From Halobacteriovoraceae bacterium (GTDB lineage Bacteria; Bdellovibrionota; Bacteriovoracia; Bacteriovoracales; Bacteriovoracaceae), in assembly GCA_002711995.1 (NCBI GenBank), contig PASN01000009.1, forward strand, positions 181,019 through 245,018: a stretch of 64,000 bases of DNA, written 5' to 3'. Position numbers and translations under genes: made by a program. How positions within the stretch are numbered: the stretch's first letter is position 1; each line of letters opens with the position of its first letter. The notes beneath the pieces are model-generated. The model had not been told where the DNA came from and ran no database searches. It saw nothing but the letters and a program-made list of their open reading frames with translations. Shown piece after piece: positions 35,646 to 40,605 of this stretch.

Positions 35646-37370
35646 TTACCAACCAAAGCCCCAACCAGCATTAAGAGAGAATCCCACGTTACCTGGCGAG
35701 TATGGTGCGTAACCATAGGTACTCATTCCAGCTTGTCCCCCATAGCCATTAGACCATAGGTTTCTAGCAGATTGCTGATATGAATTTCCAAGAGCCGCTT
35801 GTTGTAAGTATTGATCTTGCATGAACGCCTGGTTGCTTCCAGCATAGCTTTGCTGAACATTTCCCCATCCAGCTGAGCCACCTCCCCAGCCTCCGGAACC
35901 ATTCCAATATGAACCAGCACCGTTCCCCCAAGGAGCTACACCTGCCCCAGCGTGTCCGCCAAAGTAAGGGTTGCCATACATACCACCGCCAAATCCACCT
36001 GCAGCTCCGGGAAATCCTCCCATGCCGCCTGGCATAGTTCCACCGAAACCGCCTCCAGGGAATCCACCGCCGAAGCCGCCGCCAATTCCGAGTTGAAATC
36101 CACCTCCCATTCCAGGAAATGAAACCTGTCCAGGACATGGCTGAGTAATACACATCATACCGCCACCAGCATAGCCTCCAGGGAATCCACCGCCGAAGCC
36201 TCCACCGCCGAAGCCGCCGCCTCCAGGGAATCCGCCGCCGAAGCCACCTGGGTATCCACCTCCAAGACCAATCTGCAGTCCAAATCCAGGTCTTGAGAAT
36301 GGATTACCATAGGGGTTTTGCATTCCATAAGGTCCATACATTCCACCCATGAAGCCAGGAGTGTATCCTGCGGAAAACCATGGGTTTCCATATCCGCCCA
36401 TGCCGTTGCCCATAAAACCACCTGCACCTCCAAAGGCACTTAACTGGTAGCCATTACAGCCTGGGATATTCATGTTGCCACCAAACTCTTGGTCAGGAAG
36501 GCCCTGATTAACAACATAATTACGTTGTGCCTGAACGTCAGCATAGTAGCCGTCGATATAGTTTGTTTGCATCATTCTACAGTTTTCAAATCCAGCCGTC
36601 GCGGCTCCGGCCCAAGCTTGGTTAGACCTTAAAAAAGCTTTTGATTGGGCTTTTACCCCCATGTATCCCATAACAGGAGGAAGAATCGCACCGGCAACTT
36701 CAGCGATCCCGCTAAGAGTGCCATATACACCGCCTCTATAAGATCCGCTTGAACAATCAACACAGTTCATGCCATCGCTATAGCTTGCCCTGATAATATT
36801 TGCATCATTTCCAATACACGCTTCTAAAGACTCGCCATAGCTGCATCTAAAAGAAATTCCACCTTCTCTGTGTATATATGTTCCAGTTCCATCTCTACGA
36901 CCGCTGCTTCCATCGCTACTCCCATCGGAGTCAAAACCAGGTAGACGAACCCAAACTCCGCCATCAAGCTTACACTTACTTCTATCTTCGCCACATAGCT
37001 TGTTGAACATATCAAGGTCAACCCAACCGAAGCCCTTTACTTCGAATTCACCACCGGTTGCATCTTTCAAAACCTGATCAGAATCTCTTCTTTCATAACA
37101 CCGAGTTTTCCAACCACCGATGAATGCCCCACTTCCTTCCGGAAACGCCGCCTCAACTTGAGCAACAGTAGCATCATCAGCGTTCTCACTTAGGGAACAC
37201 TTAACAGCGTGACACTCTCTTCGTTTGCCGTCCGGATCATCCACGGCCTCAACATCGTAGTCTCCACCCAGTGACTTACATCGTCCGATCAATTTATCGA
37301 CGACTTCCTCACCAGCGAATGCGGAATGAGACATAAATAATAACAACAGTAGTTGAATTCCCTTAAACAT
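35646..37370 (-). CDS. Secreted glycine-rich protein with cysteine-containing N-terminal domain
   Basis: The 574-residue precursor has a signal peptide ending in SAFA (about residue 19). Residues 25-300 contain many cysteines, several probably disulfide bonded, and an aspartate-rich stretch. Residues 310-550 are dominated by GGFGGGFPGG-type repeats with tyrosine and asparagine. Low-complexity glycine-rich tails occur in surface or matrix proteins; no enzyme motif is visible. It ends near a bidirectional terminator. Unknown function. Confidence 0.8.
   Translation of the reverse strand: MFKGIQLLLLLFMSHSAFAGEEVVDKLIGRCKSLGGDYDVEAVDDPDGKRRECHAVKCSLSENADDATVAQVEAAFPEGSGAFIGGWKTRCYERRDSDQVLKDATGGEFEVKGFGWVDLDMFNKLCGEDRSKCKLDGGVWVRLPGFDSDGSSDGSSGRRDGTGTYIHREGGISFRCSYGESLEACIGNDANIIRASYSDGMNCVDCSSGSYRGGVYGTLSGIAEVAGAILPPVMGYMGVKAQSKAFLRSNQAWAGAATAGFENCRMMQTNYIDGYYADVQAQRNYVVNQGLPDQEFGGNMNIPGCNGYQLSAFGGAGGFMGNGMGGYGNPWFSAGYTPGFMGGMYGPYGMQNPYGNPFSRPGFGLQIGLGGGYPGGFGGGFPGGGGFGGGGFGGGFPGGYAGGGMMCITQPCPGQVSFPGMGGGFQLGIGGGFGGGFPGGGFGGTMPGGMGGFPGAAGGFGGGMYGNPYFGGHAGAGVAPWGNGAGSYWNGSGGWGGGSAGWGNVQQSYAGSNQAFMQDQYLQQAALGNSYQQSARNLWSNGYGGQAGMSTYGYAPYSPGNVGFSLNAGWGFGW
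36000..36260. repeat. Imperfect tandem repeat coding for GGFGGGFPGG units
   Basis: Copies of a CCACCGCCGAAGCC-like unit recur with small variations, inside the glycine-rich secreted protein gene. Local GC is well above the window average because of glycine codons. Length variation between strains is to be expected. Confidence 0.75.
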
Positions 37371-39736: not shown

Positions 39737-40047
39737 TGATCTGCCTTTTTAAAAAAATGTTAAAGCAAAGCCTAGGCCATGTAAATAATATTAAAAACTT
39801 ATGGATACCTTATGGCGCGCGCATTTCGCAGTTTCAAATCAAGGGGAAAGTTTTCATCACGCAAAGCGAATTAAAAAACGCTCAAGACCACGTCACAGAG
39901 CGTACTTTAAGAATTACACGCGCTTAGAAATTAACGCGCGCACGCCAAGTGCGCTTTGGCTCTGCCTTTCTAACATTTCCTCTTTCCCGCGCAAGAAATT
40001 GTTAACCTAAAACACGTGATACAGGGCTTCTACAAAGATATGCTTTA
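39737..40047. other. Intergenic stretch with GC-rich inverted repeats, no gene recognised
   Basis: About 310 bases between murJ and the structured leader. It carries alternating GCGCGC stretches (39813-39818 and 39935-39942) and a small inverted repeat GCCAA/TTGGC (39944-39960). Open frames cross it but have no ribosome site and unusual composition. It probably holds the murJ promoter and that of the leader RNA. A weak -35/-10 pair (GAAATT, 17 bases, GATACA at 40018-40023) could start the leader, but I would not rely on it. Confidence 0.4.
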
Positions 40048-40176
40048 CTTGGGCAGGATGCTGACAGTTGGGGCCCGCTAATCCATGGATGGAGTTTTGG
40101 CCCAACAACACACACCTAGCAGGATGCTAATTAACTTTTGGGATAGGAGATGCCCAAGACCAGAGACCAAGGAGGT
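40048..40176 (+). promoter_or_regulatory. Structured mRNA leader with multiple GGA-loop hairpins, candidate CsrA/RsmA target
   Basis: CTTGGGCA (40048-40055) pairs with TGCCCAAG (40151-40158). Inside, GTTGGGGCC pairs with GGCCCAAC around CCATGGATGG (40083-40092). Small hairpins present GGA in their loops: GCA-GGA-TGC (40053-40061), TAGCA-GGA-TGCTA (40117-40129) and GGGAT-AGGAG-ATGCCC (40140-40155). ACC-AAGGA-GGT (40166-40176) covers the ribosome site of the next gene. The ten-base GCAGGATGCT occurs twice. Some pairings exclude each other, which suggests switching. GGA in hairpin loops, with one at the Shine-Dalgarno, is the recognised pattern of CsrA binding. Confidence 0.6.
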
Positions 40177-40181
40177 TCGCC

Positions 40182-40526
40182 ATGTTTTTAGCCGTAGCTG
40201 TGGAGACACACAAACATCCTTCCAAAAAAACAGATTACAAAGTTTGGTACCTAGAAATAGGGCCTGACGGAAAGGTGCGAGGAGTCGGAGTCAAGACTAG
40301 AGAAGAGCTTGTTAAGAGCGTCTTTGAGAATTACAGAATTACAGGCAAGACACATTGGAGATGCTTTCAAAAGGACAGAGAGTCCTCTACTCCAATTGAA
40401 GTTTTTGACTTCATTGCCATGAACTCTTTTGAAAACACCCATTTTGGCAATTTGCCAACTCTCTGCGAGTTCCAAACAACTTTGGACTCGCTAAAGGCGA
40501 ACCTTGAGCTACGTTCTATAGCTTAA
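40182..40526 (+). CDS. Small protein of unknown function behind a structured leader
   Basis: The 114-residue cytoplasmic protein starts with MFLAVAVETHKHPSKKTDYKVWYLEIG. The ATG follows a strong AAGGAGG ribosome site that lies in a GGA-loop hairpin. Pattern suggests two or three beta strands and a helical C-terminus; cysteine occurs in CFQKD and LCEF. No family recognised. A hairpin follows at 40571. Its elaborate leader suggests tight post-transcriptional control. Confidence 0.75.
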   Translation: MFLAVAVETHKHPSKKTDYKVWYLEIGPDGKVRGVGVKTREELVKSVFENYRITGKTHWRCFQKDRESSTPIEVFDFIAMNSFENTHFGNLPTLCEFQTTLDSLKANLELRSIA

Positions 40527-40570
40527 AACCCTCCCCTCTTTTTTCCCACCTGGAATGAAGATCAGGACAA

Positions 40571-40605
40571 GGCCCGTGAATTCGGGCCTGCCTTTAATTT
40601 TGATG
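40571..40605 (+). terminator. Probable terminator after the 114-residue protein gene
   Basis: GGCCCG (40571-40576) and CGGGCC (40583-40588) form a six-pair stem with a six-base loop, followed by CCTTTAATTTTG. The T tract is interrupted, so it may be weak. Confidence 0.55.

Follow-up and report, generated by a model that had tools for sequence, protein, structure and literature searches.

The closest known counterpart of the locus described here is the Escherichia coli pgaA leader, an untranslated RNA with six CsrA sites in which, as in our leader, several GGA motifs include one at the Shine-Dalgarno (SD) sequence (PMC7652899). The hag and flaA leaders of the CsrA-FliW systems in Bacillus subtilis and Campylobacter jejuni likewise carry GGA upstream of and at the SD (PMC7652899, PMC4894983). 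Targets repressed by CsrA include dksA of E. coli (Edwards 2011, as cited in PMC7652899) and the flagellin of B. subtilis, and the CsrA SELEX site, RUACARGGAUGU, lies mostly within hairpin loops (PMC7652899). Repeated GGA hairpins joined by single-stranded spacers are also found in the sponge sRNAs CsrB/CsrC and RsmX/Y/Z. CsrA targets in Bacteriovorax-type bacteria appear undescribed, as no paper in the open library searched contains both terms, and Bdellovibrio and CsrA never occur there together in a title or abstract.

We analyzed a stretch of 64,000 nucleotides from a Halobacteriovoraceae bacterium (the window), in which the gene for a 114-residue protein is preceded by a GGA-rich leader. 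The leader differs from that of pgaA in its regular series of small hairpins, its CA-repeat linker and its downstream gene, and the Rho mechanism is pgaA's. As in the hag/flaA systems, csrA and fliW of this genome lie together in a flagellar cluster (PMC7652899, PMC4894983); unlike in those systems, the gene presumed to be regulated is not flagellin and the sites are more numerous, while the flagellin leaders of the same genome are similar in their hairpins. DksA-like leaders of the family resemble the window leader in type, and differ from E. coli dksA in belonging to another phylum and having several hairpins each. In contrast to the sponge sRNAs, our leader is joined to an SD and an open reading frame and has neither its own terminator nor an Rfam match.

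A GGA-rich leader precedes a family-specific gene

The features of the locus are as follows.

40039-40044, + strand: putative -10 box TATGCT, placed by its position relative to hairpin 1 in relatives
40048-40158, + strand: possible long-range stem of CTTGGGCA (40048-40055) with TGCCCAAG (40151-40158), from complementarity
40052-40062, + strand: hairpin 1, GGCA-GGA-TGCT, loop GGA at 40056-40058, matching the family's most conserved hairpin
40056-40058, 40087-40089, 40091-40093, 40122-40124, 40141-40143, 40146-40148 and 40171-40173, + strand: GGA triplets, by direct reading
40067-40106, + strand: hairpin 2, outer stem GTTGGG(G)CC/GGCCCAAC, apical part TCCA-TGGA-TGGA, by direct reading
40108-40115, + strand: ACACACAC linker, from CACACA conservation among homologous leaders
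40117-40129, + strand: hairpin 3, TAGCA-GGA-TGCTA, loop GGA at 40122-40124, by direct reading
40141-40148, + strand: two more GGA, GGATAGGA, by direct reading; retained in the congener L003
40169-40175, + strand: SD AAGGAGG with overlapping GGA, conserved in nearly all leaders
40182-40526, + strand: gene for the 114-residue protein, with homologues in the window's own family only
40570-40589, + strand: terminator-like hairpin, predicted end of a monocistronic transcript, from a terminator scan

The initial annotation had described GGA motifs in or beside small hairpins between 40048 and 40182, and our reading agrees, with seven GGA triplets in the leader and the hairpins where it had placed them. 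Two of the triplets were said to lie in a repeated sequence, which is GCAGGATGCT, present at 40053-40062 and 40119-40128; the ACC-AAGGA-GGT reported over the SD is found at 40166-40176. This ACC/GGT stem also occurs in L003 and is not general among the leaders, whereas the GGA of the SD itself, here at 40171-40173, is a general feature. The leader thus has GGA in the loops of short hairpins, and one site at the SD together with sites upstream of it, as in CsrA-regulated mRNAs. The GGA at 40087-40089 in the hairpin 2 loop has an unpaired probability of 0.97, and GGA hairpins near the position of hairpin 3 are also seen in L003, L004 and L024.

Of 59 near genomes, 21 encode a homologue of the 114-residue protein, as do 75 of the 369 genomes of the phylum, all 75 in the window's (Bacteriovoracaceae-like) family; a named near relative, from a Bacteriovoracaceae bacterium, is 90% identical. 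Twelve columns are invariant among 74 sequences, including NTHFGxLP. Searches of Pfam, NCBIfam, PHROG and the PDB returned no relative of weight, and UreE, CspE and Crl were rejected as weak matches. An AlphaFold2 model with pLDDT 88 and pTM 0.79, used in place of an earlier low-confidence model (pLDDT 71), has no fold match in the PDB. Elsewhere in the window, a 574-residue open reading frame on the - strand (35646-37370) matches nothing in Pfam, and its long C-terminal half is rich in Gly and of low complexity.

GGA hairpins are conserved in homologous leaders

Folded by itself, the window leader is no more stable than shuffled sequences (z +0.31 and -0.17); structure alone is therefore no evidence, and comparison had to decide. 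We collected and oriented the upstream regions of all homologues and compared positions -155 to -15 relative to the start codon in 75 leaders, using as controls dinucleotide shuffles, the -400 to -260 region of the same loci and the antisense strand. The leaders contain 94 copies of the CsrA-type motif CA(R)GGAHG, compared with 6.0 ± 2.1 in shuffles (maximum 12), 2 in the -400 to -260 region and 0 on the antisense strand, and 118 GGA looped by a stem of at least 4 pairs, compared with 40.9 ± 5.8 in shuffles and 30 in the -400 to -260 region; as the genomes are kin and their leaders not independent, these figures overstate significance. The bare GGA count is modestly enriched (321 versus 257 shuffled), because the shuffles preserve dinucleotide composition. 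Motif and hairpins are conserved across genera at 50-60% protein identity. A lack of GGA hairpins in relatives, which the initial annotation had named as grounds for giving up its CsrA reading, is excluded.

The number and spacing of GGA sites vary between leaders, some reaching 7-10 and many relatives having 1-3. In the minimal relative, L013/G018, a single hairpin ATGCA-GGA-TGCAT is combined with the SD GGA, a two-site layout as in simple CsrA targets. In L077 the SD is preceded by no GGA at all, and in three other homologues (L020, L041 and L019) by just one each; the array is thus not needed in every homologue. The linker between the hairpins is also strongly conserved: CACACA is present in 63 of the 75 leaders, compared with 4.9 ± 2.2 in shuffles and 0 of 74 upstream controls, and L077 retains the linker without GGA hairpins.

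Covariation and held-out tests do not depend on motif counts. The initial annotation had proposed folding with related genomes, and the outcome favors the hairpins: in an alignment of 22 sequences from one densely sampled genus and near relatives (A2), 80.6% of the cells of hairpins 1 and 2 are paired, compared with 32-49% after sliding by 1-3 columns. Double changes are seen in 11 of 18 pairs, and 39 cells are changed on both sides, compared with 16.3 ± 3.4 in shuffles. Hairpin 1 in this alignment is AGCA-GGA-TGCT, the family counterpart of the window hairpin, with two invariant pairs and two showing double changes. Hairpin 2 consists of an outer AGGT../..ACCT stem and an apical stem around AGGAT, and 5 of 6 pairs of the apical stem are altered on both sides.

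We built a covariance model (R1) from 24 leaders of other genera, with the window's genus left out. Its best match in the window's 3.7-Mb genome is the window leader (40051-40113, E 0.014), and the only other match there is antisense within a gene. In other genomes, matches with E below 1e-6 lie directly upstream of the 114-residue protein gene, these sequences or near copies of them being mostly already in R1; the held-out cases (G000, G002, G009, G016 and G077) are weaker, yet they are the ones that count.

A long-range stem enclosing the hairpins had been suggested as a competing fold. Its two arms can pair over 8 bp in the window leader and over 7 bp in that of L003, but the stem is not conserved further, reaching P<=0.05 in 6 of 45 leaders. 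We thus rejected the stem as a conserved switch; it would at most be lineage-specific.

The hairpins are predicted to lie at the 5' end of a monocistronic mRNA

In 21 of the 32 non-redundant leaders, the GCAGGA of hairpin 1 is preceded at a distance of 6-8 nt by a -10-like hexamer (TATGAT, TATAAT or TATGCT in type), which is also visible in alignments A2 and A3. Since this hexamer immediately precedes hairpin 1, the hairpins should lie at the 5' end of the RNA, with the window transcript beginning around 40050-40052 and hairpin 1 at its very end. A start downstream of 40140, the other finding that the initial annotation had named as speaking against its reading, is thereby disfavored, the 5' end itself being a prediction. 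No -35 consensus is seen, and a sigma-70 scan missed this promoter, which came from comparison. A hairpin and T run comparable to the terminator-like site of the window follow the gene in 59 of 74 loci.

Many relatives (for example L011 and L027-L040) have conserved GATGTTAG.., TTACAAT and TAGGGGCA elements ahead of the -10, some loci showing an inverted repeat of TGCCCCTA/TAGGGGCA before the promoter. These elements are possible activator or operator sites.

CsrA, FliW and similar hairpins before other genes

The window's genome contains one csrA gene (G000:C2:41119-41274), whose translation has the RNA-contact residues L4 and R44 of CsrA. It is adjoined by fliW in the order flgL-csrA-fliW (L001) within a flagellar cluster, as expected for a CsrA-FliW partner switch. 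csrA is present in 119 of the 129 genomes of the family; as some genera (g10 and nearly all of g14) have csrA without the 114-residue protein gene, the link is not obligatory. The CAGGAUG motifs in short hairpins of the leaders fit the CsrA SELEX site.

Similar hairpins are located in front of other genes. In the window's genome, the leaders of two flagellin genes contain a AGCAGGAAGCT hairpin (L083) and a TGCCACGGAAGGCA hairpin (L081) before the SD. Weaker R1 matches lie directly upstream of DksA/TraR-type zinc-finger genes (3 genomes), scpA (1) and an FlhG/MinD-like gene (1); the remaining weak matches are inside genes and look like chance. Among the DksA-like leaders of 15 homologues, including that of the window's genome (L155), we counted 38 looped GGA, compared with 8.9 ± 2.7 in shuffles. 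As dksA and flagellin are repressed by CsrA elsewhere, the company of these leaders fits the CsrA reading, and the leader of the 114-residue protein gene and the DksA-like leaders likely form a shared regulon.

Across the family, GGA-hairpin arrays are visible in the leaders of DksA/TraR-like zinc-finger genes (L139-L154, and L155 in the G000:C13:305148 region), with L155 also containing a ACACACACAC linker. GGA hairpins and ACACACACAC are found directly before scpA, encoding segregation and condensation protein A (L128, G006:C42:22558-22613), and a CTTCTCTAGGATGGAGAAG hairpin precedes an FlhG/MinD-like ATPase gene (L130, G145:C316).

Discussion

We propose, with a probability of about 0.78, that the sequence is a multi-site CsrA-controlled mRNA leader of the family-specific gene, most likely repressed at the SD. 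The assignment as a CsrA target, which the initial annotation had put forward as a candidate, draws on the conserved hairpins and their promoter-proximal position, on csrA and fliW in the genome and on the similar hairpins in flagellin, DksA-like and FlhG-like leaders. The monocistronic mRNA would begin with an untranslated leader of ~130 nt, from ~40050 to the ATG at 40182. CsrA dimers may bind the looped GGA of the upstream hairpins and bridge to that of the SD, which would block ribosome access and repress translation until CsrA is withdrawn. In the window's genome this withdrawal would probably be brought about by FliW, which is encoded in the csrA cluster. We infer CsrA binding, repression rather than stabilization, and control by FliW from these comparisons, a role for FliW as the antagonist being suggested by gene order alone.

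The main rival concerns the sign of regulation. E. coli flhDC and ymdA are models for activation by CsrA, and binding at the 5' end stabilizes flhDC mRNA (PMC7652899). CsrA might similarly bind our leader and activate, with a 5'-terminal hairpin protecting the mRNA from decay, or with the SD being opened, and hairpin 1 is both the most conserved element and predicted to be at the extreme 5' end. We consider activation unlikely, because nearly all leaders have a GGA overlapping the SD, an argument weakened by the fact that any SD contains GGA by nature, and because the hairpin and SD pair of L013 has the layout of a repressed target. Alternatively, the hairpins could serve another RNA-binding protein, a ribosome stand-by site or a riboswitch, with GGA present by chance or as SD mimics. 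The linker matches the hairpins in conservation, is kept in L077, and has to our knowledge no part in CsrA binding, all of which would suit such a role. What is conserved, however, is GGA in small loops while stems and their number change, rather than one fold. Flagellin and dksA, whose counterparts here carry similar hairpins, are classic CsrA targets, and we regard another role as quite improbable.

The leader could also act mainly as an RNA-borne titrator of CsrA, or give rise to a separate sponge sRNA, as the initial annotation had considered and as the GGA sites of some leaders, numbering up to 7-10, might suggest. This is very unlikely: many relatives have only 1-3 sites, the strong R1 matches are tied to the 114-residue protein gene, and an open reading frame with its SD follows the leader where a stand-alone RNA would have its own terminator and no reading frame. 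No terminator-like site was found within the leader, and the predicted mRNA ends after the gene. An Rfam search of the leader, sponge families included, gave nothing at gathering score and only PhrS (E 1.3) at E<=10. The separate-RNA proposal also gained no support from the rest of the genome, where no comparable double-site cluster was found: CAGGAHG-N12-42-CAGGAHG pairs number 7, compared with 5 in a reversed control, and AGCAGGAHGCT occurs 4 times, compared with 3 in the control, two of the four being the window leader and a flagellin leader. The one CAGGAHG pair that we inspected (L087) was rejected as a sponge because it lies antisense inside a gene. A chance GGA-rich stretch without function, with which the single-sequence folding would agree, has a negligible probability given the motif excess, the covariation and the recovery of the leader by a model from other genera, and is refuted by conservation.

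A more speculative extension of the CsrA-controlled leader, which we consider a long shot, is a dedicated Csr branch of the family in which the leader, with up to 10 sites, titrates CsrA from flagellin, DksA-like and FlhG-like mRNAs while the 114-residue protein feeds back on CsrA. If true, the sponge would be carried on an mRNA, in bacteria relying on FliW instead of CsrB-type sRNAs.

Our comparison describes a conserved leader RNA that is absent from Rfam, and thereby marks a family-specific protein as a predicted CsrA-controlled one. Together with its DksA-like, flagellin, ScpA and FlhG-like counterparts, the leader would make up the first predicted CsrA target set for Bacteriovorax-type bacteria, and offers a motif that may be tested in the life cycle of this largely predatory family.
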